DNA of 64,000 nucleotides, taken from contig NZ_AP022332.1 of the NCBI RefSeq assembly GCF_009936375.1, forward strand, positions 682,001 through 746,000, in the 5' to 3' direction. Shown here in pieces: positions 1,707-50,827 of this stretch. The stretch is from Methylosinus sp. C49. GTDB lineage: Bacteria; Pseudomonadota; Alphaproteobacteria; Rhizobiales; Beijerinckiaceae. Position numbers and translations under genes: made by a program. The stretch's first letter is position 1, and each line of letters opens with the position of its first letter. Under the pieces are notes generated by a model. That model was given only the letters and a program-made list of their open reading frames with translations, was not told the origin of the DNA and searched no databases.

Positions 1707-2393
1707 TCACGCCGCCGCGAGGCTTTCGAACAATCCCCGGCCGTCGATTCCGCCGACCAGCGGATCGATGAGATTTTCGGGGTGCGGCATCAGGCCGAGC
1801 ACATTGCGGCGCTCGGAGAAGATTCCGGCGATGTCGTTGCGCGAGCCGTTGGGATTGGCATCGCCGCCGACGCGCCCGAGCGCATCGCAATAGCGGAAGG
1901 CGATGAGCCCCTCGCCCTCGAGCCGGGCGATCGTCTCGTCATCGGCCTCGTAATTGCCCTCGCCATGGGCGATGGCGACCTCGATCGTCTGGCCCTGCCG
2001 ATAATGGCTGGTGAAGGCGGTGTCGGCGCGCTCGACGCGCAAATGCTGCATGCGGCAGACGAAGCGCAGATTGGCGTTGCGCATCAGCACGCCGGGCAGC
2101 AGCCCGCCCTCGCACAAAATCTGGAAGCCGTTGCAGACGCCGAGCGTCAGCCCGCCGCGCGCGGCATGGGCGCGCACCGCGTCCATGATGGCGGCGCGGC
2201 CGGCGATGGCGCCGCAGCGCAGATAATCGCCATAGGAGAAGCCGCCCGGCAGCACGACGAGATCGGTGCCCGCGGGCAGCTCGGTCTGCGAATGCCAGAC
2301 CATTGCGGGCTCGTGGCCGGTGGCTTGGCGAAGCGCGCGCGCCATATCGCCTTCGCGATTGGAGCCGGGAAAGACGAGGACGGCGGCTTTCAT
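1707..2393 (-). CDS. purQ: Phosphoribosylformylglycinamidine synthase subunit PurQ
   Basis: Glutaminase subunit (228 residues) of FGAM synthase, which with PurS and PurL makes formylglycinamidine ribonucleotide in purine synthesis. The class I glutamine amidotransferase nucleophile is seen in LGVCNGFQ (Cys87), with the oxyanion segment PGGFSYGDYLRCGA just before it and MPHPEN near the C-terminus providing the catalytic His/Glu context. The length is normal for PurQ. It lies four bases after purS in the same direction, which is the usual purS-purQ arrangement of bacteria with a small PurL; purL is not in the window. Confidence 0.96.
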   Translation of the reverse strand: MKAAVLVFPGSNREGDMARALRQATGHEPAMVWHSQTELPAGTDLVVLPGGFSYGDYLRCGAIAGRAAIMDAVRAHAARGGLTLGVCNGFQILCEGGLLPGVLMRNANLRFVCRMQHLRVERADTAFTSHYRQGQTIEVAIAHGEGNYEADDETIARLEGEGLIAFRYCDALGRVGGDANPNGSRNDIAGIFSERRNVLGLMPHPENLIDPLVGGIDGRGLFESLAAA

Positions 2394-2397
2394 GGGA

Positions 2398-2634
2398 TCA
2401 GATCTCGATCTGGAAATTCTCGATGACGGTGTTGGCGAGCAGCTTCTCGCAGGCCGCGCGCAGTCGCGCCTCGGCGAGGGCGCGGTCGGAGCCCTCGAGC
2501 TCTATGTCGAACACCTTGCCTTGCCGCACGCCGCCGACGCCCTCGACGCCGAGCGAGGCCAGCGCGCCTTCTATGGCCTTGCCCTGCGGATCGAGCACGC
2601 CGTTCTTCAAGGTGACGATGACGCGGGCTTTCAT
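2398..2634 (-). CDS. purS: Phosphoribosylformylglycinamidine synthase subunit PurS
   Basis: A 78-residue protein beginning MKARVIVTLKNGVLDPQGKA, which is the conserved start of PurS. PurS dimerises and links PurQ to PurL so that ammonia passes from the glutaminase to the synthase site. GVEGVGGVRQGKVFDIEL in the middle is also family typical. It is directly upstream of purQ, four bases apart, and both are surely one transcript. purC, often the preceding gene in related bacteria, is not next to it; the upstream gene on this strand is an unrelated membrane protein. Confidence 0.95.
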   Translation of the reverse strand: MKARVIVTLKNGVLDPQGKAIEGALASLGVEGVGGVRQGKVFDIELEGSDRALAEARLRAACEKLLANTVIENFQIEI

Positions 2635-2752
2635 GCGGCGGCTTCCCTGTTTGGGCTTCGGAGGCTGGCCGCAGGGTTAGCGGGGGACGCGCCGGAGCGC
2701 AAGAATTTCCGGGCGAGAGAATTTCTGGCCGGGAATTTCCGGCCGTGACGCT

Positions 2753-3631
2753 TCAGGCCGAGCGCGCGCGCAGCGTGTAGACGAAGCCCATGGCGCCGAG
2801 CAGCGCGATCGTGGCGGCGAACACCGGTTGGCCGGCGGCGAGCGTCAGCATGACGGCGACGAAGGTGGCGACGCCGATCACCGTGGTGACGATGATGGAG
2901 CCGACCGGCGACGCCCCGCCGCCGCTCGCAGCGCTGCGCCGTCGCGGCGGGCTGGCGACAGCCGAGACCACGGCCTGATAGGCGGGATCGAAATTGATGC
3001 GATCGATGAAGAGCGGCGGCGCGGCATAGGGAAAGCCGCCGGAGGGTGAAGCGAAATCGCGGTCATAGGCGGCGGCCTCGACGGCGCCCGGCCCGGTCTT
3101 GGTCACATAGAGGTCGATGGTCGCTGTGTCGCGCTCGCCGTCGCGGACCAGAAGCGCGGCGCGAATCGTCGGCGCGGCCTCGGCTGAATTGCGCGAGGGA
3201 AGACGCGCGCGCGGAACGGTCTCGGCGGCGTCGAGGAATTCCCGGACCGTCTCGCCGCGCGCCTCCGCGGCCGCGCGCAGCGCGGTCTGCGCCTCGCGAA
3301 TGACGATGCGCGGCGGAATGCGTTCGCCGATGAGCCGCGGCAGGCCGGAGAGCGCAGCCGCGCTCGGCCCATAGGCCGACCGCAAAGGCGCATTCTCGCC
3401 GGCGAGCGGCCCGTCGGATTCGGCGCCGAGCGGCATGGCGAAATTGCGATAGCCGGCGGGCAGCGCGTCGCGGAGGCCCGGACCGGGCGGGGGCGGCGGC
3501 TTGGCGGCCGTCGCGGTCGCGACCTTCGTCTCCTCCTCCACCGCCTCGGCTTTCGCCGTGACCTGCGAGACGCGCGACAGCGCGCGCACGCTGGGCGCTC
3601 GGGAGGTGAGAGCGGAAATCGGCGAAACCAT
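2753..3631 (-). CDS. Unknown protein with two C-terminal membrane segments
   Basis: I do not recognise this 292-residue protein. From ATG 3631 (MVSPISALTSRA) it has a basic, Ala-rich head, a Pro run near residue 50, a central soluble part with a YVTKTGPGAVEAAAYDRDF segment, a Ser/Gly/Arg linker, and two hydrophobic helices at the C-terminus (around IIVTTVIGVATFVAVML and FAATIALLGAMGFVYTL). This suggests a C-terminally anchored membrane protein with a large soluble domain. The frame remains open upstream to 3814, but that extension lacks coding character and overlaps the neighbouring promoter area, so ATG 3631 is preferred. It is divergent from the acyl-AMP ligase gene. Confidence 0.6.
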   Translation of the reverse strand: MVSPISALTSRAPSVRALSRVSQVTAKAEAVEEETKVATATAAKPPPPPGPGLRDALPAGYRNFAMPLGAESDGPLAGENAPLRSAYGPSAAALSGLPRLIGERIPPRIVIREAQTALRAAAEARGETVREFLDAAETVPRARLPSRNSAEAAPTIRAALLVRDGERDTATIDLYVTKTGPGAVEAAAYDRDFASPSGGFPYAAPPLFIDRINFDPAYQAVVSAVASPPRRRSAASGGGASPVGSIIVTTVIGVATFVAVMLTLAAGQPVFAATIALLGAMGFVYTLRARSA

Positions 3632-3813
3632 GATTCGTGACCATCCATGGCGCGTCGGACGCGCATCTAGTTTCCGGCGTCCGCCTTGCGCGAAGCTGGC
3701 GTCAGCGCAACCGGAGCGATTGTCGGCGGCCCATGTCGACGGCGGGTTACAGAAAAGAGTCGAATGCCGCCGACCTCGCTCTATCTGCCTCGAGAGCGAG
3801 GGAGGGCCTCCCA

Positions 3814-6663
3814 ATGCATGCGGTCTCCAACTATCCGGGACGTCGGCGCGCCACGCAGGAGGCGGCGCGGCGGGAGGTTTTCGCCGTTGTCGACTCGCTC
3901 GCCCGCGAAATGCATCCGCGGCGCGGCGCTCCGACCGAGATTTCGCTGTCCAGCCGGCTCGAGCAGGATCTCGGCGTCGACAGCCTGGCGCGCGCCGAAT
4001 TGAATATGCGGCTGGAGCGCGCCTTCCACGCCCCGCTGCCGCTCGAGGAATTGGGCCGCGCCGATACGGTCGGCGATCTGCTGACGGCGCTGGAGAAGGC
4101 CCCCGGCGCCGAGCCGCCCGCCTTCTCCGAGCCTTCCCCCGCCGAGGCGCTGCCGCATATTCGCGCCGCCTTCGAGGCGAGGACGCTGACCGAGGCGCTG
4201 GACTGGCACGCCGCCCAAAATCCCGAGCGGCTGCATCTCACCTTTCTGCGCGACGCCGCGACGCCCGGCGGCGCGCTCACCTATTGGCGGCTCGCCGATG
4301 AGGCGCGCCGCGCGGCGGAGGGCTTCGTCGCCCGCGACGTCGCGCCGGGCGACCGAATCGCGCTGATGCTGCCGACGGGAATCGATTTCTTCGTCGGCTT
4401 TTTCGGCGCGCTCTACGCCGGCGCCATTCCCGTGCCGATCTATCCGCCGATGCGCATGGCGCAGATCGAGGAGCATCTCACGCGCCAGATCGGCATTTTG
4501 CGCAATGCGGGGGTGCGGCTGCTCGTCACCACACAGGATGGGCTGCGCCTCGCCGGCCTCGCCCGCGGGCGCGTGGAGAGCTTGGAGGCGATCGTCTGCG
4601 TCGCCGATCTCACGAGCGGCGCCAATGGCGCGCCGCTGCCGCCGACGCGCGAGGCGGGCGCGACCGCCATGCTGCAATATACGTCCGGCAGCACGGGCGA
4701 TCCCAAAGGCGTGGTGCTGAGCCACGCCAATCTTCTCGCCAATGTTCGCGCCATGGGCCTCGCCATCGGCGCCAGCTCGGCGGACACATTCGTCAGCTGG
4801 CTGCCGCTCTATCACGATATGGGGCTGATCGGCGCCTGGCTCGGCTGCCTGCATTTCGGCGCGCCGCTCTATGTCATGTCGCCGCTGACCTTCCTCTCGC
4901 GGCCGGCGAGCTGGCTGGAGGCGATCGACCGCCATCGCGGCACGCTGAGCGCCGCGCCCAATTTCGCCTTCGAGCTCTGCCTCGACAAGATCGATCCGGC
5001 GCAGATCGAAGGGCTCGATCTTTGCTCGCTGCGCATGATCGCCAATGGCGCCGAGCCCATCTCCCCGCGCACCATCCGGCGATTCGCCGAAAAATTCGCC
5101 AGACATGGCTTTCGGGCGGAGGCCATGGCGCCGGTCTATGGGCTCGCGGAAAATGCGGTCGGCCTCGCTTTTCCGCCGCCCGGCCGCGCGCCGGTCATCG
5201 ACCGCATCTCCCGCGAGGCGCTGGCGACCTCCGGCCGCGCCGAGCCGGCGGGCGAAGGCGACGGCTCATTGGAGATCGTCGGCTGCGGCGCCCCGCTGCC
5301 GGGCCATGAGATTCGCATCGTCGACGCCGCCGGCCGCGAGCTTTCCGAGCGCCGCGAGGGGCGGCTGGAGTTTCGCGGCCCCTCGGCCACAACGGGCTAT
5401 TTCCGCAATGAGGAGAAGACCAAATCGCTGCTTCGGGGCGGCTGGCTCGACAGCGGCGATCGCGCCTACATGGCCGGCGGCGAGATTTTTGTGACCGGGC
5501 GGGTCAAGGACATTGTGATTCGCGCCGGGCGGCATCTCTATCCGCAGGAGATAGAGGAGGCCGTCGCCGCGCTTCCCGGCATTCGCAAGGGCTGCGTCGC
5601 CGCTTTCGGCGCGCCCGATGTGGAGACCGGAACGGAACGGCTGATCGTCGTCGCCGAGACCTATGAGACCGTGCCGGAGGCGCTGGGCGTGTTGGAGACC
5701 AAGGTCCAGACGGCGGTGGCCGCCGTCTGCGGCGCGCCGGCCGATGAGGTTCGCTTCCTGCCGCCGCGCTCGACGCCCAAAACCTCGAGCGGCAAGATTC
5801 GCCGCGGCGCCGCCAAGGCGCTGTTCGAGGAGGGTCGGCTCGGCGAGCCGCGCGGTCCGGTCTGGCTGCAGATCGGCAGGCTGGCGCTGCTCGGCCTATG
5901 GCCGGCGATCCGAGGCGCGGTTGGGCGAGCCGGCGAGCTCGCCTATGCCTGCTGGTGGTGGCTCATCGTCTGCGCCGGCTATTTTGCCGCCTGGTGGGCG
6001 GTGATGATCCTGCCCCGCCGCTCGCGCTGGCCCGCCGTGCGCAAGATCGCCGGCGCCATGCTCGGCGCCATCGGCGCCAAAGTCACGACGGAGGGGCTGG
6101 AGCGTCTGCCGCCGGGCGGCGCCGTGCTCGCCTTCAACCATTCGAGCTATGTCGACGTCATGCTGCTCGCCGCCTCTCTGCCGGGAGAGCCGGCCTTCGT
6201 CGCCAAGAAGGAGCTGGCCGGGCAGATGTTCGCCGGGCCGTTCCTGCGCCGGCTCGGGGCGCTTTTCGTCGAGCGCTACGATATTGCCGCGAGCGTGGCC
6301 GACGCGGAGACGCTCGCGGCGGCGGCCCGGGAGGGGCGCAATCTCGTGTTCTTCCCGGAGGGGACCTTCACGCGCCGCGCCGGGCTCTGCGGCTTCTATC
6401 TCGGCGCCTTCAAGATCGCCGCGGAGGCGGAGCTGCCGGTCTATCCGGGCGTCCTGCGCGGAACCCGCGGCATGTTGCGCGGCGAGCAATGGTTCCCGCG
6501 CCGCTCGGCGCTGTCGCTCGCCATTCTGCCGCCGATACGGGCGGGCGGGAGCGATTTCCTCTGCGCGCTGCGGTTGCGGGATCATGTCCGCGCCGCCATT
6601 CTCGCGCGCTGCGGTGAGCCGGATTTGAGCGAATTGTCCAAGCCGAAGCGGGGGGAGGCGTAG
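3814..6663 (+). CDS. ACP / fatty-acyl-AMP ligase / PlsC acyltransferase fusion
   Basis: A 949-residue three-part protein. Residues about 15-100 form an acyl carrier domain with the phosphopantetheine site LGVDSL (Ser57). Residues about 125-700 are an adenylate-forming ligase: QYTSGSTGDPKGVVLSH at about 287, PLYHDMGLIGAWLG, the Y-G-L-A-E-N motif, and the C-terminal lysine motif TSSGKIRR. After one or two membrane helices, a PlsC-type acyltransferase follows, with NHSSYVD (from N775) and FPEGTFTR (about 847). The parts suggest that a fatty acid is activated as acyl-AMP, loaded on the linked ACP, and moved to a lysophospholipid or similar acceptor. ATG 3814 is chosen because GGAGGG precedes it at normal distance; the frame is open further upstream. 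Confidence 0.88.
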   Translation: MHAVSNYPGRRRATQEAARREVFAVVDSLAREMHPRRGAPTEISLSSRLEQDLGVDSLARAELNMRLERAFHAPLPLEELGRADTVGDLLTALEKAPGAEPPAFSEPSPAEALPHIRAAFEARTLTEALDWHAAQNPERLHLTFLRDAATPGGALTYWRLADEARRAAEGFVARDVAPGDRIALMLPTGIDFFVGFFGALYAGAIPVPIYPPMRMAQIEEHLTRQIGILRNAGVRLLVTTQDGLRLAGLARGRVESLEAIVCVADLTSGANGAPLPPTREAGATAMLQYTSGSTGDPKGVVLSHANLLANVRAMGLAIGASSADTFVSWLPLYHDMGLIGAWLGCLHFGAPLYVMSPLTFLSRPASWLEAIDRHRGTLSAAPNFAFELCLDKIDPAQIEGLDLCSLRMIANGAEPISPRTIRRFAEKFARHGFRAEAMAPVYGLAENAVGLAFPPPGRAPVIDRISREALATSGRAEPAGEGDGSLEIVGCGAPLPGHEIRIVDAAGRELSERREGRLEFRGPSATTGYFRNEEKTKSLLRGGWLDSGDRAYMAGGEIFVTGRVKDIVIRAGRHLYPQEIEEAVAALPGIRKGCVAAFGAPDVETGTERLIVVAETYETVPEALGVLETKVQTAVAAVCGAPADEVRFLPPRSTPKTSSGKIRRGAAKALFEEGRLGEPRGPVWLQIGRLALLGLWPAIRGAVGRAGELAYACWWWLIVCAGYFAAWWAVMILPRRSRWPAVRKIAGAMLGAIGAKVTTEGLERLPPGGAVLAFNHSSYVDVMLLAASLPGEPAFVAKKELAGQMFAGPFLRRLGALFVERYDIAASVADAETLAAAAREGRNLVFFPEGTFTRRAGLCGFYLGAFKIAAEAELPVYPGVLRGTRGMLRGEQWFPRRSALSLAILPPIRAGGSDFLCALRLRDHVRAAILARCGEPDLSELSKPKRGEA

Positions 6664-40681: not shown

Positions 40682-40909
40682 ATGACCGACGAGACGAGCG
40701 ATCATACGGTCGATCTGAGTGACCCTTCCGAATATGAGGACATCGTCTCTCAGCGCGCCATCGCCTTCTGCCACCTCGCAAAAGTCGCCGACTCCGTCCG
40801 CGACGAGCAGGTCAAGGAGCAGTGCCTCATCATGCTGCGCAAGCTCAACGCCAGCATAAGGGCGCCCTCGACCGCGGAGGTGCGATCGATCGATGGCGGC
40901 CAGATCTGA
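40682..40909 (+). CDS. Small acidic protein of unknown function
   Basis: A 75-residue protein, from ATG 40682 (MTDETSDHTVDLSDPSEYED); a GTG at 40637 would add 15 residues. The acidic head is followed by helices with QRAIAFCHLAKVADSV and CLIMLRKLNASI. I know no family. The gene ends four bases before the end of the HPt gene on the opposite strand. It looks like a real small gene from codon use, but its role is open. Confidence 0.55.
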   Translation: MTDETSDHTVDLSDPSEYEDIVSQRAIAFCHLAKVADSVRDEQVKEQCLIMLRKLNASIRAPSTAEVRSIDGGQI

Positions 40910-40913
40910 CGCC

Positions 40914-41255
40914 TCACCGACCGAGCCGGGACGCGATCGCCAGCTGCGCCTCGGCCAGCCGCGCGATGAGCGCCCGTCGCCGCTCCGGCTCGGCGAGGGC
41001 GGACTCATAATCCTCGGCCGCGTCGCCGAGCGCGAAGGCGCCGATGGCGCGCGCCGCGCCTTTGAGCGTATGGGCGAGGTCTCGGCGCGCCTTGTCCGAG
41101 GCCGCCGCCGCCAGCCTCCCCTCGAACTCGCCCGCCTGGGTGAGGAACAACGTCAGCAGCTCGATCTCGAGCTCGGCGTCGCCCATCGTCTGACGCGAGA
41201 GATGCGCCCAATCGATCGCGTCGGGCGCGCCTTCGGTGTTTCCGCCATCCGTCAT
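40914..41255 (-). CDS. Histidine phosphotransfer (HPt) protein
   Basis: A 113-residue four-helix HPt domain with the phosphorylated histidine in DLAHTLKGAARAIGA (His62). Stand-alone HPt proteins pass phosphate between a hybrid kinase and a response regulator; no kinase or regulator is next to it, so it is an orphan here. In alphaproteobacteria one such protein, ChpT, is cell-cycle specific, but ChpT is larger and different. It diverges from the large GPR-like gene. Confidence 0.85.
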   Translation of the reverse strand: MTDGGNTEGAPDAIDWAHLSRQTMGDAELEIELLTLFLTQAGEFEGRLAAAASDKARRDLAHTLKGAARAIGAFALGDAAEDYESALAEPERRRALIARLAEAQLAIASRLGR

Positions 41256-41629
41256 TCTACGTCTCCGATCGACCCTTCGCGGAAAAGTCTCGTTTTTCCT
41301 GTGGATTGCGCCGCGAGCCCGCGCGGGGCCTCGGCGATTGCGCTCGCCGGGCCGAATCGGGCGTCGTATTCTTATTCGAATCAATCTTATGTAGGCATTG
41401 CTTCGGATTTTCGGCCAGGCCACAGGTCGTCCCTTTTGCTCCGCTGCAGCCGGAGCGCCGAGCATCTTTCTCCCGTCGCGTTAACGACGATTTCGATTGG
41501 CCGCCGGCGCCCGTTTCATTTGCGGGCCGACGGCGGTAATATTTGGTTAATCTTTTCTGCTCGATGTGAACGGCGACAAAGGGTGAGCGGCGTCATAAAG
41601 CGGAACCATGACCGCTCGGAGAGGTGACG
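41256..41629. other. Divergent promoter region of the HPt and GPR-like genes
   Basis: These 374 bases hold no gene. AT-rich patches at about 41366-41402 and 41530-41560 stand out against the GC-rich background. GTTAAC at 41479-41484 and GTAATATTTGGTTAA at 41536-41550 are the notable words; the second is close to the CtrA cell-cycle regulator box. Confidence 0.5.
41536..41550 (+). promoter_or_regulatory. Candidate CtrA-binding site upstream of the GPR-like gene
   Basis: GTAA (41536-41539), seven bases, TTAA (41547-41550): seven of eight bases of the TTAA-N7-TTAA box bound by the alphaproteobacterial cell-cycle regulator CtrA. It lies 80 bases before the start codon. One site by eye could be chance in an AT-rich patch. 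Confidence 0.35.
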
Positions 41630-44600
41630 ATGGCGAAATCGGGCAAGCCCCAGGACGCGGCTATCGCTGCGCTGTCGGCGGTCGAAGAGGCGTTGAATCT
41701 GGGCTTGGAGCCCACCGCCGAGGCCGCGACGGAAGCGGGCGAGAAAATCGCGTCGCCGGCCGAGGCGGGCGCCAAGCCCGCCGATAAGGCCGAGGGCAAG
41801 AGCCAGGCCAAGACGGCCCCCGGCTTCAACTTCAGCCTCCCCTCCTCGCGACGCCAAGATGCGCGCGACGCCGCGCGGGAGTCTGCGCGCCCGTCGGAAG
41901 GCTCCGTGGTCGCGTCCGGCCGCGCCGCGGCCAAGCCGCAGGTGGCTCCCGCCGGCGCGCCCGCCAATGACGATCGCCAGACCGTCGGCGAGCTGCGCGC
42001 CGCGCTGCAGGTCCGTCCCAACACCGCTATTCTCGGCTATACTTTCCTGTCCATCGCCGCCTGGGCGGTGCTGTGGACCCTCTTCGTCTATTTCAATCAG
42101 GGCGAGATTCTCGACCGCGAGAACGGCTCCTTCCTCGCGCCCAAGCCGGTGCTGACGCTGCTGGCGCTGCTCGCCCCCATCGTCTTTATTTTCGTGACCG
42201 GCGTGATGGCGCGCCGCGCCCATGAGATGAAGCAGGTCGCCAATTCCATGGCGGAAGTGGCGATAAGGCTGATCGAGCCGGAGACCATCGCCACCGAGCA
42301 GATGGTGACGCTGTCGCAGGCCATTCGCCGCGAGGCCGCCTCCATGGGCGACGGCATAGAGCGCGCGCTGGCGCGGGCCAGCGAGCTCGAGATCATCGTG
42401 CGCACCGAGGTCTCGAATCTCGAGCGCTCCTATTCCGAGAATGAGCGCCGCATTCGCGTGCTCATCGACGAGCTGACGCGCGAGCGCGAGGCGATCCTCG
42501 TCAACGCCGACAACGCCCGCACGGCGCTGCTCGGCGCGCGCGAGTCGCTGTCGGCGGAATTGCAGACCAGCTCCTCCCATCTCGCCGAGACGGTGAGCGA
42601 GGCCGGCGGCCGCGTGACCGCCGCTCTCGGCTCCAAGGGGGAGGAGATTCGTCTGGCGCTGGAGCGCGTCGGCGACGGCTTCAACTCCACGCTCTCGACG
42701 CGTGGCGAGGATATGGTGCAGCGTCTCTCCGTCGCCGGGGAGACGATCGCGGTCAGCCTCACTCTGGCCTCGGAGGAGGTCACGCGGCGCTTCTCCGACG
42801 GCATAGCCGAGGCCGATCGCAAGCTTCAGGAGCGCGGCGACGCGCTGGCGACCGATTTCGAATCGCGCGGCGCCTATGTCGTCGATCGGCTCGACTCCAT
42901 CGGCGGCCATCTCGTGCAGGCGGTGGGCGAGCGCGGCGAGAGCTTCGTCGATCGTCTCGCGGAGACCAGCGGGCGCGTCGACGAGGCGATCGAGACGCAT
43001 GGCGGCGCGATCGAGCGTTCGCTGCTGTCGGCTTCTGAAAATCTCGCGACCCAGCTCGCCGAGAAAGTGGCGGCGACCGAATCGGCCTTCCGCACGGCCG
43101 GCGACCGCCTCGCCGAGCTGCTCGAGGAAACGCGCGAGCGCGCCCGCGCCGAGCTGGAGGCGCATGGCGGCGGCCTCAACGAACGTTTCGCGCAGACGCT
43201 CGCCGAAAGCGCCAGCGCCTTCACCGAGCAGGCCGACGCTCTGCACGAGCGTTTCGCCGCCGTGGCCGGCGAGGCAATCGCCGCCATCGCTTCGCATGGC
43301 GATCGCGTCACCGACACGCTCGCCGATCGCCTCGGCGCCTTCGAGGAGAATGTCGTCGTCCAGGGCGGCGAGATCGCCTCGCGCTTCGCCGAGCAGGGCG
43401 AGCGCATCGGCGCGGCGCTGACGCAGGGCGTCGCGGAATTCGAGCAGAGCGTCGCGCAGCGCAGCGCCGAAGCGACGGCGCGCCTCGCCGAAGAGGGCGC
43501 GCGTCTCGGCCAGACGGTGGCCGAAGGACTCATGGCTTTCGAGGAACGTGTGACCGGCCATGGCGACGAGGTCGCGGCGCGTCTCGTTCTGCATGGCGAC
43601 GCCATCGGCTCCGCCGTTGCGGAAGGTCTCGCGGCCTTCGAGGAGCGCGTCACCGGCCATAGCGAGGAAGTGGCGACGCGCCTGCTGACGCGAGGCGACG
43701 AGATCGGCTCCGCCGTGGCCGCCGGCCTCGCCTCTTTCGAGGAGCGCGTCGCGGGCCGCAGCGAGGCGGCGGCGGAGCGTCTTTCGGTCCAGGGCGAGAC
43801 GATCGGCTCTGCGGTGGCGGCGGGTCTCGCGGCCTTCGAGGAACGCGTCCTCGGCCACAGCGAGGAAGTGGCGACGCGTCTCGTCACCCATGGCGATGCG
43901 ATCGGCTCCGCGGTGGCGGAAGGCCTCGCGGCCTTCGAGGAACGCGTCCTCGGCCACAGCGAGGAAGTGGCGACGCGTCTCGTCACCCATGGCGATGCGA
44001 TCGGCTCCGCGGTGGCGGAAGGCCTCGCCGCATTCGAGGAGCGTGTCGCCGGCCGCAGCGAGGATGCGGCCGCGCGTCTTTCGACGCAGGGCGAAACGAT
44101 CGGCGCGGCGTTGGCGGCCAGCCTCGCGGCTTTCGAGGAGCGCGTCACCGGTCAGAGCGAGGATGTCGCGACGCGTCTCTCGGCGCATGGCGACGCCATC
44201 GGGTCGGCGGTGGCGGAAGGCCTCTCCGCCTTCGAGGAACGCGTCATCGGCCATAGCGAGGATGTCGCCAATCGTCTCGTCTCGCATGGCGACGCGATCG
44301 GCGCCGCCGTCACCGAGGGCCTCGCGGCCTTCGAGGAGCGCGTCGCCGGCCAGAGCGAGGATGTCGCGGCGCGGCTCGCAGCTCATGCCGACGCGGTCGG
44401 CGCCGCCGTCAACGAAGGGCTCGCGGCTTTCGAGGAGCGTGTCGCCGGCCAGGGCGCCGCAGCGGCCGAGCGCCTCATCGAGGAAGGCGCGCGCATCGGC
44501 CTCTCCGTGTCGGAGGGCGTCGCCGCTTTCGAGGCGCGCGTGCTCGGCCACAGCGAGGTGGTCGCCGATCGTCTCGTCGCGCAGGGCGATGCGATCGGAG

Positions 44601-47600
44601 CCGCGGTCTCGGAAGGCCTCGCGGCCTTCGAGGAGCGCGTGACCGGCCACAGCGCCGAGGCGACGGAACGTCTCGTCGCTCATGCGGAGCAGATCGGCTC
44701 CACCGTTTCCGGCAGCCTCGCCGTCTTCGAGGAGCGGGTCCTCGGCCAGAGCGAGCAGGCGGCCGAACGTCTGGTCTCCCATGGCGACGCCATCGGGGTC
44801 GCGGTCGCCGACGGCCTCGCCGCCTTCGAGGCGCGCATTCTCGGCCATGGCGAGGATGTGGCGCAGCGCCTCGTCGCCCATGGCGACACGATCAGCGGCA
44901 TCGTCACCGAAGGCCTCGCCAAATTCGAGACGCGCGTTCTCGGCCAGAGCGAGGAGGCCGCCGCGCGGCTCACCGCTCACGGCGACGCCCTCGGCCTCGC
45001 CGTTGCGGAAGGCATCGCCGCTTTCGAGGATCGGCTCTCGCAGCAGCATGAGGCGACGCTGTCCAGCCTCGAGGAGCAGAGCGAGCGCGCCACGACGGCC
45101 GTCGCGGGCGGCCTCGAGGCCTTCCGCGAGGCGGTCGTGCAGCAGAGCGAGGAAACCGCCTCGCGGTTCCTGCAGCAGGGCGAGCGCGTCGGCCAGGCCA
45201 TCGCCGAAGGGCTCGCCTCCTTCGAGGAGCGCATCGCCGGCCGCAGCGACGAGACCGTCCTGCGTCTGGTCGAGCGCGGCGACGAGATCGGCGCCTATCT
45301 CTCCCAGGGCCTCGCGGCCTTCGAGGAGACGGTGGTGCGCCATGGCGACGAGGTGGCGACGCGCGTCACCGAGCATTCGGATCGCATCGCTTCCGTGCTC
45401 TCCGAGCGGCTCACCGCTTTCGAGGAGCAGGTGGTGCGGCAGAGCGGCGATGTCGTCGCCCGCGTCACCGAGCAGGGGGAATGGGTCGACGGCGTGCTGG
45501 TCAATCGGCTGGACGCGCTGGAGGAGGCGACCGCGCAAGTCTCCCGCACGCTCGAGGAGACGCAGAGCCGCGCCGAGCAGGCCTTCACGGTCGGCGGCGC
45601 CGCGCTCGAGGCGGGCCTCGCCGCGAGCGTCGCCGATGTCGCCGCGACTCTCGCCGAGCAATCCGCCTCGCTGCAGGAGCGTTTCGCGGTCACGGCCAGC
45701 GAGGCGGCGCTCGCCATCGCCACGCAGGGCGAGCGCATCGAGGAAGCGCTCGCCGGCCGCATCGCCGCTTTCGAGGCCATGGCGCTCGATCAAGGCGGCG
45801 CGCTGGCCAATGCGCTGACGGCGAGCGGCGAAGGCCTCGCGCGCGACGTCGCCGAGCGCCTCGCCTCTCTCGACGAGACATTGCGCGGCCATTCCGCGCG
45901 TCTCGCGGCGCAGATCGACGAGCATACGCAGCAGCTCGCGGCCGAGCTCACCGAGCGTCTCACAGCGGTCGACTCGGCCATTGTCGAGGAAGGCTCCGCG
46001 CTGGTTTCCGCCATCGCCGCCAATGGCGATGGCTTCACGCGCGAGATCGGCGATCAGCTCGCCGCTTTCGACGAGGCGCTGCGCAATCGCGGCGGCGAGC
46101 TCAGCGCGCAGATCGGTGAGCATTCGCAGCGGCTTTCGGCCGAGCTCTCCGAGCGGCTGGCGGCCGTCGATTCGACGATCGTCAACGAAGGCGCGGCGCT
46201 GGTGGCGGCCATCGCCGCCAATGGCGAGGGCTTCACCCGCGACATAGGCGATCAGCTCGCGGCCTTCGACGAGGCGCTGCGCAATCGCGGCGACGAGCTC
46301 GGCGCCAAGATCGGCGAGCATACCGAGCAGCTCGCGGCCGAGCTCACTCAGCGTCTGACGGCGGTCGACTCGGCCATCGTCAACGAGGGCGCGGCCCTTG
46401 TGGCGGCCATCGCCGCCAATGGCGAGGGCTTCAGCCGCGACGTCGGCGAGCAGCTCGCGGCCTTCGACGAGGCGCTGCGCAATCGCAGCAATCTCATGGC
46501 CGCGCAGATCGGCGAGCACTCCGAGCAGCTCGCGGCGGCGCTCGCCGAGCGGCTCGCGGCGGTCGATACGACGATCATCGACCAGGGCGGCGCGCTGGTC
46601 GCGGCTCTGGCGGCCAGCGGCGACGGCGTCGCCCGCGGCGTGGAGGAGCAGCTCGCCGCTTTCGACGAGCGCCTGCGCCATCACGGCGGCGAGCTCGCCA
46701 CGCAGATCGGCGAGCGCTCGCAGCAGCTCGCTTCGGCGCTGGCCGAGGGACTTTCGGCGGTGGATACGTCGATCGTGGATCGCGGCGGCGCGCTTGTCGC
46801 GGCGCTGGCGGCGAGCGGCGAGGGGGTCACGCGCGGGGTGGAGCAGCAGCTCCTCGCTTTCGACGAGCGCCTGCGCCATCAGGGCGGCCAGATCGCGGCG
46901 CAGATCGGCGAGCATTCGCAGCAGCTCGCGGCGAGTTTGGCCGAGCGTCTGGCCGCGGTGGACGCGGCCATCGTCCAGCAGGGCGGAGCGCTGGCCGATC
47001 GTCTGGCGGAGCGCGCCGACGAGATCGCGGCGCGCATCGGCGATCAGTCGCAGCGCTTGGCGGATGACGTCGGCCAGCGGCTGGCGGCCATAGACAAGAC
47101 GATTTCGGGCGACGGCACCGCGCTGGTCGAATTGCTCGGCGCCCGCGCCGAGGAGATCGCCGCGGTCATGTCGTCGAAGATCGAGAGCTTCGAGACCGTC
47201 TCCAACGCCCGCACGCGGCAGGCGGCGGATCGCATAGATGCGCTGGTCGGGCGCGTCGATTCCGGGCTCGATTCGGCAGGCAAGGCTTTTCAGGACACGC
47301 TCGCCCGCCATGCGGTGGAGGTCGCGCGCGCCATGGGCGAGGGCGGCCGCGAGGTCATTCGCTCGCTGGACGAGAAGGTCAAGGATATCGATGCGGTGCT
47401 GCTCGCCCGCTCGACCCAGCTCACCGAGACGCTCTCCTCCAAAGCGGAGGAGATCAATTCCACGCTCGGCGGCCGCGCGGAGGAGATCGCCGGCACGCTG
47501 GACGGGCGCATCGGCGTCTTCGAGAACAATGTCGTCGGCCGCCTGGACGCGGTCTCCGGCGAGATCGGCGAGCGCAGCCGCGTCGTCGTCGAGACGATCA

Positions 47601-49480
47601 ACGCCCGCATCGAGGAGATCAACGCGACGCTGGCCTCGGCGCGGCGCGATCTCGACACCACTCTGCACGCCCGCACCGGCGATCTCGGCCAGGCGCTCAC
47701 CGAGCGCGTCGGCGAGATCAGCTCGACGCTGGAGCAGCGCCTCACGCAGATCCAGACGACGCTCGGCGATCGCGGCGGCGAGGTGACGCGGGAGCTCGCC
47801 AATGTCGGCGAGCTGGTCGCCCATGCGATCGAGAGCCGCGGCTCCACCATCGTGCAGCATCTCGGCGAGAAGCGCGTCGAGCTGGCGGCGGCGATCGACC
47901 AATCGGCGGAGGAGCTGAAGAAAGCGCTCACCGACGGCGCCGAGGGCTCCGTGCGGGCGCTGCTCGACGTCAATGAGAAGCTCCGCGCCGAGCTGCCCGA
48001 GGTGCTCGACCGGCTGGGCGAGACCAATTCCTCGCTGCAGACGATCATCTCGGCGGCGGGCGGCAATCTCTCCAATCTCGATAAGGAGCTCGGCGGCAAG
48101 CTGCGCGAGTTCCAGGGCGCGATCGAGACGGTCGCGCAGCATATCGCGACAGTGGGCGAGGTCTCGAGCGGCGTGATGCGCGACGCGGGCTCTGTGGTCG
48201 GCGCGATGGAGACGCATCAGCAGAGCCTGACGCAGAGCGCCGAGCGGCTGGCGCAGAGCCAGTCCGAGCTCGACGCGGCGCTCGACGCGCGCCGCCGCTC
48301 GCTGGAAAATCTCGTGCTGCTGGTCGAGGACAAGCGCCGGGATTTCGAGGACACGGTCGCCAATTTCTCCGGCCTCGTGGAGGAGAATTTCCGCCGGGTC
48401 GAGGAGCGCGCGCGCGATGTCGGCGGCTTCATCGCCCAATCGACGCAGGAGACGGCGGAGCTGGTCGACGAGCGCTTCGCCGCCGTGCGCGACGCCGCCT
48501 CGCGCGAGCGTGAGGAGACCGCCGCGGCGCTGCGCGCGGCCTATGATCAGGCCAATGACGAGCTGGCCGAGATATTCGGGCGGGCGACGGAGAAATTCGC
48601 CGCCGCCGCGACCGAGATTCGCGGCATGTCGGCGGAGATTCAGAGCGAGCTGGAGCAGACCCGCGCCGAGCTGCGTCGCGGCGCGCAGGAATTGCCGCGC
48701 GAGACGGCCGAGCAGGCCGCCGCGCTGCGCCGGGTCGTCGGCGAGCAGGTGAAGGCGCTCAATGAGCTGACCGATATCGTCGCGCGCTCGGGCCGCGCCT
48801 ATGACATAGCGGAGACAGTTCCTGCGGCGGCCCCCGCCGCTCCCGCGCGTCGTGGTTTCGAGCCGCAGCCGCAGCCCGCGCCGGCGCCGGTCGCGCCGCC
48901 GCCGCCCGCCCCGCGCGCGCAAGAGCCGAGCTGGACCAGCCGCGCTCCGCGCGAGGAGCCGCAACGCGCCGCGCGGGCGATTCAGGCGCCGCCTCCGCCC
49001 CCGCCGGCTCCTCCGGCGCGGCCCGTCGCCTCAGCGACAGAGGATGGCTGGCTCACGGATCTCTTGGCGCGCGCCTCCCGCGACGAGGCTCCCGCCGCCG
49101 CGCCGCCGCGCGCCAATACGGCGGCCGGCCGCGCCAAGGCCGCCGGCGCTCTGGACAATCTCACCCTCGACATCGCCCGCATGGTCGATCATGCCGCGGT
49201 CGGGGAGTTCTGGGATCGCTTCCAGCGAGGGGAGAAGGGCCTGTTCACCCGCAGGCTCTATACGGCCCAGGGCCACCAGACCTTCGAGGAAATTCGTCGC
49301 CGCTACCGAGTCGATCCCGATTTCCACGCCACGGTCGATCATTATGTTCAGGAGTTCGAGCGACTCGTCGCCGAGACCAGCCGCAATGATCGCGATGGCG
49401 CGCTGACGCGTGGCTATCTCACCTCCGACGCCGGCAAGGTCTACACCATGCTCGGCCATGCGGCGGGCCGTTTCGAGTGA
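41630..49480 (+). CDS. Giant apolipoprotein-like coiled-coil protein, Growth Pole Ring (GPR/RgsE) homologue
   Basis: A 2,616-residue protein. An N-terminal cytoplasmic part (about residues 1-125) precedes two membrane helices (AILGYTFLSIAAWAVLWTLF and LTLLALLAPIVFIFVTGVM). Then comes some 2,250 residues of almost pure helix with repeats of 33 and 66 residues, a Pro-rich linker (residues about 2410-2470) and a folded C-terminal domain (DNLTLDIARMVDHAAVGEFW to the end). This layout matches the Agrobacterium GPR protein, which forms a ring at the growing pole, and RgsE of Sinorhizobium. ATG 41630 follows GGAGAGG. The name rests on architecture recalled from the family, not on an alignment. The opposite strand has a long stop-free frame that is a composition by-product. 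Confidence 0.78.
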   Translation: MAKSGKPQDAAIAALSAVEEALNLGLEPTAEAATEAGEKIASPAEAGAKPADKAEGKSQAKTAPGFNFSLPSSRRQDARDAARESARPSEGSVVASGRAAAKPQVAPAGAPANDDRQTVGELRAALQVRPNTAILGYTFLSIAAWAVLWTLFVYFNQGEILDRENGSFLAPKPVLTLLALLAPIVFIFVTGVMARRAHEMKQVANSMAEVAIRLIEPETIATEQMVTLSQAIRREAASMGDGIERALARASELEIIVRTEVSNLERSYSENERRIRVLIDELTREREAILVNADNARTALLGARESLSAELQTSSSHLAETVSEAGGRVTAALGSKGEEIRLALERVGDGFNSTLSTRGEDMVQRLSVAGETIAVSLTLASEEVTRRFSDGIAEADRKLQERGDALATDFESRGAYVVDRLDSIGGHLVQAVGERGESFVDRLAETSGRVDEAIETHGGAIERSLLSASENLATQLAEKVAATESAFRTAGDRLAELLEETRERARAELEAHGGGLNERFAQTLAESASAFTEQADALHERFAAVAGEAIAAIASHGDRVTDTLADRLGAFEENVVVQGGEIASRFAEQGERIGAALTQGVAEFEQSVAQRSAEATARLAEEGARLGQTVAEGLMAFEERVTGHGDEVAARLVLHGDAIGSAVAEGLAAFEERVTGHSEEVATRLLTRGDEIGSAVAAGLASFEERVAGRSEAAAERLSVQGETIGSAVAAGLAAFEERVLGHSEEVATRLVTHGDAIGSAVAEGLAAFEERVLGHSEEVATRLVTHGDAIGSAVAEGLAAFEERVAGRSEDAAARLSTQGETIGAALAASLAAFEERVTGQSEDVATRLSAHGDAIGSAVAEGLSAFEERVIGHSEDVANRLVSHGDAIGAAVTEGLAAFEERVAGQSEDVAARLAAHADAVGAAVNEGLAAFEERVAGQGAAAAERLIEEGARIGLSVSEGVAAFEARVLGHSEVVADRLVAQGDAIGAAVSEGLAAFEERVTGHSAEATERLVAHAEQIGSTVSGSLAVFEERVLGQSEQAAERLVSHGDAIGVAVADGLAAFEARILGHGEDVAQRLVAHGDTISGIVTEGLAKFETRVLGQSEEAAARLTAHGDALGLAVAEGIAAFEDRLSQQHEATLSSLEEQSERATTAVAGGLEAFREAVVQQSEETASRFLQQGERVGQAIAEGLASFEERIAGRSDETVLRLVERGDEIGAYLSQGLAAFEETVVRHGDEVATRVTEHSDRIASVLSERLTAFEEQVVRQSGDVVARVTEQGEWVDGVLVNRLDALEEATAQVSRTLEETQSRAEQAFTVGGAALEAGLAASVADVAATLAEQSASLQERFAVTASEAALAIATQGERIEEALAGRIAAFEAMALDQGGALANALTASGEGLARDVAERLASLDETLRGHSARLAAQIDEHTQQLAAELTERLTAVDSAIVEEGSALVSAIAANGDGFTREIGDQLAAFDEALRNRGGELSAQIGEHSQRLSAELSERLAAVDSTIVNEGAALVAAIAANGEGFTRDIGDQLAAFDEALRNRGDELGAKIGEHTEQLAAELTQRLTAVDSAIVNEGAALVAAIAANGEGFSRDVGEQLAAFDEALRNRSNLMAAQIGEHSEQLAAALAERLAAVDTTIIDQGGALVAALAASGDGVARGVEEQLAAFDERLRHHGGELATQIGERSQQLASALAEGLSAVDTSIVDRGGALVAALAASGEGVTRGVEQQLLAFDERLRHQGGQIAAQIGEHSQQLAASLAERLAAVDAAIVQQGGALADRLAERADEIAARIGDQSQRLADDVGQRLAAIDKTISGDGTALVELLGARAEEIAAVMSSKIESFETVSNARTRQAADRIDALVGRVDSGLDSAGKAFQDTLARHAVEVARAMGEGGREVIRSLDEKVKDIDAVLLARSTQLTETLSSKAEEINSTLGGRAEEIAGTLDGRIGVFENNVVGRLDAVSGEIGERSRVVVETINARIEEINATLASARRDLDTTLHARTGDLGQALTERVGEISSTLEQRLTQIQTTLGDRGGEVTRELANVGELVAHAIESRGSTIVQHLGEKRVELAAAIDQSAEELKKALTDGAEGSVRALLDVNEKLRAELPEVLDRLGETNSSLQTIISAAGGNLSNLDKELGGKLREFQGAIETVAQHIATVGEVSSGVMRDAGSVVGAMETHQQSLTQSAERLAQSQSELDAALDARRRSLENLVLLVEDKRRDFEDTVANFSGLVEENFRRVEERARDVGGFIAQSTQETAELVDERFAAVRDAASREREETAAALRAAYDQANDELAEIFGRATEKFAAAATEIRGMSAEIQSELEQTRAELRRGAQELPRETAEQAAALRRVVGEQVKALNELTDIVARSGRAYDIAETVPAAAPAAPARRGFEPQPQPAPAPVAPPPPAPRAQEPSWTSRAPREEPQRAARAIQAPPPPPPAPPARPVASATEDGWLTDLLARASRDEAPAAAPPRANTAAGRAKAAGALDNLTLDIARMVDHAAVGEFWDRFQRGEKGLFTRRLYTAQGHQTFEEIRRRYRVDPDFHATVDHYVQEFERLVAETSRNDRDGALTRGYLTSDAGKVYTMLGHAAGRFE
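43340..45440 (+). repeat. About 22 tandem 99-bp (33-residue) repeats
   Basis: The word TTCGAG recurs at 43340, 43439, 43538, 43637, 43736, 43835, 43934, 44033, 44132 and so on to 45419, each 99 bases apart, with only single degenerate copies such as the one at 45122. Each unit codes for a 33-residue helix unit of the type GLAAFEERVxGHSEEVATRL, i.e. three 11-residue turns as in apolipoproteins. The units starting at 43835 and 43934 are identical for over 90 bases. Confidence 0.93.
45869..47060 (+). repeat. About six tandem 198-bp (66-residue) repeats
   Basis: The word TTCGAC occurs at 46067, 46265, 46463, 46661 and 46859, 198 bases apart, with a variant at 45869. Each unit codes for LAAFDEALRNRGGEL, a helix with IGEHSQQLAAELxERLAAVD, and an Ala-rich segment EGAALVAAIAANGEGF. 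The length is twice that of the upstream 33-residue unit, so it may have arisen by pairing of two such units. Confidence 0.88.
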
Positions 49481-49807: not shown

Positions 49808-50827
49808 ATGAAATCCGTCCTGTTTGCCGGCGTCGCCGCGCTCGCGCTCTTTGCGAATGGCGCCTATGCGGCCGATGACGCCAAGACCGCCAAGCCCGAG
49901 CCCGCCAAGCCGCTGGTCGCTTGGCCGGAACCGAATCTCGACGTTTTCGACGCCGGCTTCGACTACGCCTATGGCGCGAAATTCATGTCGGACTATATCG
50001 TCCGCGGCATTTCCAACAGCGCCCACCGCCCGGCCGGCAGCGTTTATGAGGAGCTGCGCTACGGCTGGTTCTACACGGGTCTCGCCGCCACCAATGTGAC
50101 GCTGGCCACGAGCCCGCTCGCCGAGATCGACATCACCGCCGGCATCCGCCCCACCTGGGGTCCGCTGACGCTGGACTTCGGCGCGATCTACTACGCCTAT
50201 CCGAGCAACCATCAGCAATGGTTCATCGGCGGCGCGATCCCGGTCACGACGTTCAAGAACTCCTACACCGCCCTCCCCACCACGGCTTTCGACCCGAGCT
50301 ATGTCGAGATCTACTTCAAGCCGAGCTGGGCGGTGAACGACTATCTGACGCTCGGCGGCCAGATCGCCTATGCTCCGAACTGGAACAATTATAGCGCCCA
50401 TGCGCTGTATTCGGAGATCAACGCCAAGCTCGTCCCCTTCGCCAACACCGATTATTCGGGGCTGTCGATCTCGGGCGCCTTCGGCCACTATTACATCGGC
50501 AATTCCAGCCCGGCCTATGGCGGCAGCTATATCGATCCCGACTATGCCTTCCTGGCGACCGGCATTCTCGGCACCAAGGGCTTCAAATTCGCCAGCTACA
50601 ACACTTGGAACGTCGGCGCTTCCTATAATTGGAACGTGGTGACGCTCGACCTGCGCTACTACGACTCCAATCTGACCCGCGCAGGCTGCTTCCTGAACAC
50701 CTCCGACCCGTCGGGCAATTACGTCGCCTCGGTGAACACCATCACCGGCCAGAGTTCGTCGAGCTGGTGCGGCGCGCGCTTCGTCGCCTCGCTGTCGGTC
50801 GATTTCAGCTCGGCGACCTTCAAGTAA
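49808..50827 (+). CDS. TorF-family outer-membrane porin
   Basis: A 339-residue exported beta-barrel protein. The signal peptide spans residues 1-22 (LFAGVAALALFANGAYA). The mature part has AKFMSDYIVRGISNSAHRPA, the signature of the TorF putative porin family, and many short amphipathic strands with aromatic girdle residues up to the final VASLSVDFSSATFK. The start ATG 49808 lies in a gene-free region with a likely operator; a strong terminator follows. The solute it passes is unknown. Confidence 0.85.
   Translation: MKSVLFAGVAALALFANGAYAADDAKTAKPEPAKPLVAWPEPNLDVFDAGFDYAYGAKFMSDYIVRGISNSAHRPAGSVYEELRYGWFYTGLAATNVTLATSPLAEIDITAGIRPTWGPLTLDFGAIYYAYPSNHQQWFIGGAIPVTTFKNSYTALPTTAFDPSYVEIYFKPSWAVNDYLTLGGQIAYAPNWNNYSAHALYSEINAKLVPFANTDYSGLSISGAFGHYYIGNSSPAYGGSYIDPDYAFLATGILGTKGFKFASYNTWNVGASYNWNVVTLDLRYYDSNLTRAGCFLNTSDPSGNYVASVNTITGQSSSSWCGARFVASLSVDFSSATFK

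Follow-up and report, generated by a model that had tools for sequence, protein, structure and literature searches.

An ortholog of the growth pole ring protein GPR/RgsE with an 11/3 hydrophobic stripe in Methylosinus sp. C49

Introduction

GPR of Agrobacterium and RgsE of Sinorhizobium are described as membrane-anchored proteins that localize to the cell pole, form a ring and are associated with morphology defects (PMC8262873; PMC7327166). According to these descriptions, cells that lose GPR or RgsE become rounded or otherwise aberrant, and the absence of GPR leads to mislocalized wall synthesis (PMC8262873; PMC7327166). GPR of Agrobacterium tumefaciens (Atu1348) has a length of 2,115 aa, and its published layout comprises two transmembrane helices, a long apolipoprotein-like helix, a Pro-rich region, and a C-terminus that is needed for function (PMC8262873). 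RgsE has a published length of 2,089 aa and a reported identity of 42% with GPR of Agrobacterium (PMC7327166). In the same report, Rgs proteins and MreB were suggested to be mutually exclusive, RgsE homologs were retained when their length was within 50% of 2,089 aa, and distant RgsE homologs were noted in two other orders (PMC7327166). A link between GPR and TipN of Caulobacter crescentus is already in print, as a stated similarity (PMC8546619) and in a description of TipN as ‘analogous’ (PMC13170164). TipN is likewise a large polar organizer and, at 882 aa, is much shorter; it is compared here by description only. For Methylosinus, both binary and budding division have been described, and for Methylocystis binary division (PMC7285482).

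This study concerns a stretch of 64,000 nucleotides from Methylosinus sp. C49 (contig NZ_AP022332.1, positions 682,001 to 746,000), referred to below as the window, to which all coordinates apply unless indicated otherwise. An earlier note, based on the sequence of this DNA, proposed that it encodes a giant protein of the GPR/RgsE type.

Results

A single gene (41630..49480, + strand) encodes a protein of 2,616 aa plus stop. An alternative GTG start lies two codons before the ATG, in a frame that is open there too; the ATG is matched by the beginnings of near homologs (e.g., MSKSGKIQDAA). A conserved N-terminal region (41960..42505; residues 111-292), supported by genome matches, identity to RgsE and a sequence profile, contains a juxtamembrane helix and two transmembrane helices, for which hydropathy indicated residues 134-152 (42029..42085) and 174-192 (42149..42205). 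A 33-residue repeat zone (43427..45208; about residues 600-1193) is followed by a 66-residue repeat zone (45746..46933; about residues 1373-1768), a Pro-rich linker recognized by clustering of Pro (48821..49108; residues 2398-2493) and a C-terminal domain with six predicted helices (49127..49477; residues 2500-2616). Cys is absent from the entire protein. Along the helix, the apolipoprotein family PF01442 matched in 18 stretches with a Pfam E-value of 9.1e-102. The layout in the earlier note (2,616 aa, two membrane helices, repeats, Pro-rich linker, and compact C-terminal domain) thus agreed with the open reading frame, hydropathy, shuffling, and fold prediction. Its extent of more than 2,200 residues for the 33- and 66-residue repeats proved too large: although both repeats were real when compared with 2,000 shuffled sequences (identity at offset 33 of 0.565 in residues 601-1290, shuffles mean 0.104 and maximum 0.152; identity at offset 66 of 0.66 in residues 1373-1770, shuffles mean 0.103 and maximum 0.166), the clean arrays together span about 1,000 residues, and much of the remaining helix shows an 11-residue periodicity only. 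A second open frame of 2,482 aa (41516-48964, - strand) runs antisense to nearly the whole gene and in all likelihood results from high GC content and repeated codons.

In the Sinorhizobium meliloti sequence CP090106.1, each end of the window protein had one match, and both matches fell in a single open reading frame of 2,089 aa. Identities were 51.2% for the N-terminal region (E 5e-32; query residues 57-183 of a query covering residues 115-297) and 57.8% for the C-terminal domain (E 1e-38). The published length of RgsE, and the fact that this was the only match, indicate that the gene is probably that of RgsE (SMc00190). This protein shares with the window protein two N-terminal transmembrane helices, a PF01442-type helix (E 7.6e-77, eight stretches), a Pro-rich linker, the C-terminal domain, and an adjoining, divergently oriented Hpt gene; it is 527 residues shorter. 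The N-terminal profile scored 234.6 bits with the window protein and 244.1 bits with RgsE, both of which were among its seed rows. A. tumefaciens GPR was compared via RgsE and its published description rather than by its own sequence. Judged by both ends, its architecture and its shared neighbor, the window protein is a genuine GPR/RgsE ortholog, which bears out the GPR/RgsE-type assignment of the earlier note. The sequence entry used for this comparison (L135) is titled S. meliloti pSymB, has a size of 3.7 Mb, carries chromosomal-type genes, and is probably a mislabeled chromosome.

The S. meliloti ortholog is annotated as ‘kinesin’ in the database, and the window protein showed a weak match (23.1 bits) to ZorA of the Zorya anti-phage system, which could suggest a different coiled-coil machine, either kinesin/SMC-like or with a ZorA-type tail. 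The NCBIfam cut-off for ZorA is 190 bits, far above the observed score and hence placing the protein outside that family, and a Pfam search revealed no ATPase or motor domain in the window protein. With both ends matching RgsE, a machine of this kind was in practice refuted and retains a negligible probability.

For the C-terminal domain, structure prediction yielded a compact six-helix fold (pLDDT 88, pTM 0.82). A Foldseek comparison with PDB folds gave nothing significant (best E 0.95), and profile searches yielded no convincing relative in Pfam, NCBIfam, or PDB sequences (best E in PDB 0.11). Within a sample of 150 Hyphomicrobiales genomes, including that of the host, the domain was found in 142 and the N-terminal region in 146, among them all 131 of the high-quality genomes. 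Each search detected one place per genome, apart from an additional weak hit in a single genome of the N-terminal search and likewise in a single genome of the C-terminal search; GPR/RgsE is a single-copy ortholog across this sample. The nearest named relatives by C-terminal domain, among the best 80 loci listed, were Methylosinus sp. Sm6 (78% identity, best E-value) and Methylocystis (74-79%). In five genomes (groups f37 and f23, including L175/G036), the N-terminal region occurred in frames of approximately 1,550-1,730 aa in which the C-terminal domain was not recognized; it may be read as diverged or replaced there.

Lengths were compared for the 127 homologs in which a single open frame holds both ends, setting aside 13 genomes with the ends in different frames, six with the N-terminal region only, two with the C-terminal domain only, and two with neither. 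They ranged from 845 to 2,940 aa, with a median of 1,793 aa; in Methylosinus/Methylocystis-like relatives, the shortest form had 1,384 aa and the longest about 2,580 aa. The window protein is indeed longer than GPR (2,616 versus 2,115 aa), as the earlier note had remarked, but its length is not exceptional, since six of the 127 homologs exceed it.

Hydrophobicity along the rod of the window protein had a power of 115 at 11/3 (3.667) residues per turn, as compared to a maximum of 7.6 in shuffled sequences and a power of 0.9 at 3.5 residues per turn. Because of this difference, the rod is best described, from its sequence, as carrying an 11/3 stripe rather than forming a heptad coil. On a finer grid the peak was located at 3.665 residues per turn (power 135), so that a stripe at exactly 3.667 would be too sharp a statement. 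The phase of the stripe, determined in 110-residue windows, stayed at about 125-195 degrees from residue ~300 to residue ~2060. With a rise of 0.15 nm per residue in a helix, the stripe would be approximately 260 nm long if fully helical. A single-sequence structure prediction spanning roughly six and a half of the repeats, an analysis proposed in the earlier note, gave an unusably poor model (pLDDT 51) with helix breaks at approximately every 33 residues. A continuous helix is therefore suggested by the sequence periodicity and not by the model.

The stripe was compared among 61 Hyphomicrobiales proteins (the window protein, RgsE, and 59 others), using as a rough yardstick an 11/3 power above 7.6, the maximum in 2,000 shuffles of the window protein's helix. 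This value was exceeded in 46 of the 61, and in 36 the peak was within 0.01 of 11/3; for named near relatives, the corresponding numbers were 22 and 21 out of 22. RgsE had a weaker 11/3 periodicity than the window protein (power 25.9 versus 115), and many short forms within Hyphomicrobiales peaked at 3.62-3.65 instead. Outside this order, eight of 15 proteins had a rod long enough for assessment and none of these eight showed a strong 11/3 stripe. Two of the eight, the long copies L203 (G186; 2,000 aa) and L209 (G254; 2,418 aa) from MreB-bearing genomes, peaked at 3.624 and 3.57 residues per turn, respectively.

The change from 33- to 66-residue units had been suggested in the earlier note to mark two functional zones. 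When four near relatives were mapped, zone 1 consisted of 33-residue units in all four, while the 66-residue organization of zone 2 was conserved in none: zone 2 had 44-residue units in Methylosinus sp. Sm6 (L054) and 88/44-residue units in Methylocystis sp. Sn-Cys (L056) and a Hyphomicrobiales MAG (L059), and was not strong in Methylocystis rosea (L063). In the window protein, the only apparent sign of a difference between zones is a small step in phase, amounting to about 45 degrees and located close to residue 1291, where zone 1 ends. A single inserted residue would shift the phase by about 98 degrees; the step is thus smaller than one residue, so that the register is preserved and the hydrophobic face is turned slightly at the boundary.

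Host morphology was approached via MreB. In the host genome, an MreB model had three weak matches, none above 51 bits: an HSP70 (50.9 bits), FtsA, and a stretch of 60 residues with an actin fold that lies within a frame of 446 aa. True MreB proteins, present in 19 of the 150 Hyphomicrobiales genomes, scored 103-485 bits, and the host is therefore without a true MreB. Three genes of the AMO/PmoA family in the host genome agree with a methanotrophic host. Four matches to proteins with an IalB domain, the domain of RgsG, were found. Together with the budding described for Methylosinus (PMC7285482), the absence of MreB points indirectly to polar growth or budding in the host.

The presence of the family, from which the earlier note had inferred polar growth or budding, does not by itself lead to this conclusion. 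The C-terminal domain profile matched 68 of 187 alphaproteobacterial genomes outside Hyphomicrobiales, and MreB was present in all 26 of these 68 that were tested. At 12 of 15 such loci the N-terminal profile matched as well, with scores from 3 to 113 bits, several of them weak and the best four at 64-113 bits; three loci were missed. Frames longer than 1,500 aa occurred at nine of 69 places outside the order. Within Hyphomicrobiales, at least one end of a GPR-type protein was found in 18 of the 19 MreB-bearing genomes. Since it occurs outside the order and in MreB-bearing genomes, the family alone is not diagnostic of polar growth.

This distribution also bears on whether the protein is primarily a pole landmark of the TipN kind, which marks the new pole and organizes polarity or chromosome segregation, with control of the growth zone as a secondary role. 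The occurrence of the C-terminal domain, and sometimes of the N-terminal region, in MreB-bearing Alphaproteobacteria outside Hyphomicrobiales is in line with such a role, as are the published comparisons of GPR and TipN (PMC8546619; PMC13170164). The rounded or aberrant cells and mislocalized wall synthesis described upon loss of GPR or RgsE (PMC8262873; PMC7327166) argue against it. On balance, we regard a landmark role of this kind as possible but doubtful for the window protein.

Homologs in MreB-bearing Hyphomicrobiales were 915-1,498 aa long (n = 16), and those in genomes without MreB 845-2,940 aa (median 1,837 aa, n = 111), a difference with Mann-Whitney p-values of 3e-6 by genome and 5e-4 by family. 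Of these 16 intact forms from MreB-bearing genomes, five were shorter than 1,045 aa, and the length filter applied in PMC7327166 would exclude them. A correlation of short forms with MreB was nevertheless rejected as mostly a clade effect: of five independent pairs on starred branches of a tree, four or five shared the same length class and no more than one differed in the direction predicted (sign test p 1). Outside Hyphomicrobiales, the four frames above 1,500 aa that were tested (G186, G254, G313, and G335) all came from genomes with MreB, which lends no support to a tie between length and MreB loss.

Upstream of the GPR gene and divergent from it lies a gene for a small Hpt phosphotransfer protein of about 113 aa, with an inferred start codon (40914..41255, - strand; PF01627 30.5 bits, cut-off 24.6), which contains the H-box. 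A 244-aa open reading frame (40893-41627, + strand), considered as a co-operonic gene, was rejected because it runs antisense to the conserved Hpt gene. Among 117 loci examined, 103 could be assessed; 68 of these had a divergent upstream Hpt gene, 67 of them within 1.3 kb as measured between open reading frame limits, and 35 had none at that position. Twelve of the counted loci each supplied one seed sequence to the Hpt profile and therefore count by construction; when these were removed, 56 of 91 loci had the pair, in 55 cases within 1.3 kb. The loci cannot be treated as independent, with Microvirga accounting for 17 of the 35 absences. In a 20-locus sample of Hyphomicrobiales, 13 of 18 assessable families had the pair, and outside the order it was found at seven of 13 assessable loci, one of them with a weak match (E 6.7e-7). 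Just two of 69 Hpt matches in about 1.84 Mb lay elsewhere than in the divergent upstream position. The open-licence papers searched yielded nothing on an Hpt domain in connection with polar growth of Rhizobiales, or on TipN in connection with a histidine phosphotransferase.

Downstream of the GPR gene, a cluster encoding an MlaE-type permease, an ABC ATPase, and an MlaD-like protein was found in nine of 20 relatives (L035, positions 1944-5909 of that locus, and eight further loci), its domains being assigned by Pfam at one locus and by similarity to it at the rest. The cluster was convergent with the GPR gene in eight cases and in the same direction in one, and an auxiliary lipoprotein gene was present in seven. 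A link to phospholipid transport is possible. In the window, no mla cluster was recognized downstream of the GPR gene. Directly downstream lies a gene for a putative TorF-like (Gcw_chp) porin (49808-50827, + strand), which scored just below the NCBIfam cut-off and just above the Pfam cut-off.

The mla clusters of relatives, the PF01442 match and the amphipathic 11/3 stripe would also suit an apolipoprotein-like lipid or membrane belt, serving for example the intracytoplasmic membranes or lipid bodies of methanotrophs, instead of a growth pole ring. Against such a function stand the lack of a recognizable mla cluster downstream in the window and the occurrence of the same architecture, in single copy, in nearly all sampled Hyphomicrobiales, an order in which methanotrophy is not expected of most members. 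A lipid belt appears unlikely.

Discussion

We consider it very likely that the window protein is a growth pole ring protein, that is, a membrane-anchored rod with an 11/3 stripe and a C-terminal domain which forms a polar ring and organizes envelope synthesis without MreB. Orthology to GPR/RgsE, the architecture, the absence of MreB from the host and single-copy occurrence in Hyphomicrobiales were observed directly. In the proposed mechanism, the two N-terminal membrane helices would anchor the protein in the inner membrane, and the amphipathic helix of approximately 1,760 residues with its 11/3 stripe would form a long rod that is either apposed to the membrane or self-associating, so that the striped face may bind the membrane or other copies. 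The Pro-rich linker would present the conserved six-helix C-terminal domain, and copies would come together, at the pole where growth or budding takes place, as a large ring organizing envelope synthesis without MreB. From the orthology, we infer that polar localization and the mechanism of GPR/RgsE carry over to this methanotroph. As the family is also present in MreB-bearing species within and outside Hyphomicrobiales, a role as pole landmark without polar growth is possible.

A wider scenario, which we put forward as speculative and unlikely in its entirety, sees in the GPR family an ancient pole organizer of the Alphaproteobacteria that is wired to a phosphorelay, a wiring suggested by the back-to-back arrangement with a small Hpt gene in much of the class. 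The rod would have gained its 11/3 stripe in Hyphomicrobiales and would have been lengthened repeatedly by duplication of multiples of 11 residues, in register, and its length (frames of 845 to 2,940 aa) would set, like a ruler, the size of the ring or the width of the growth zone.

These results place a known scaffold in a methanotroph whose relatives include a genus that divides by budding. The survey suggests that the family reaches beyond polar growth and occurs alongside MreB. Two features, the Hpt gene that recurs next to it and the 11/3 stripe with its large variation in length, may offer handles on the regulation and size of the ring.
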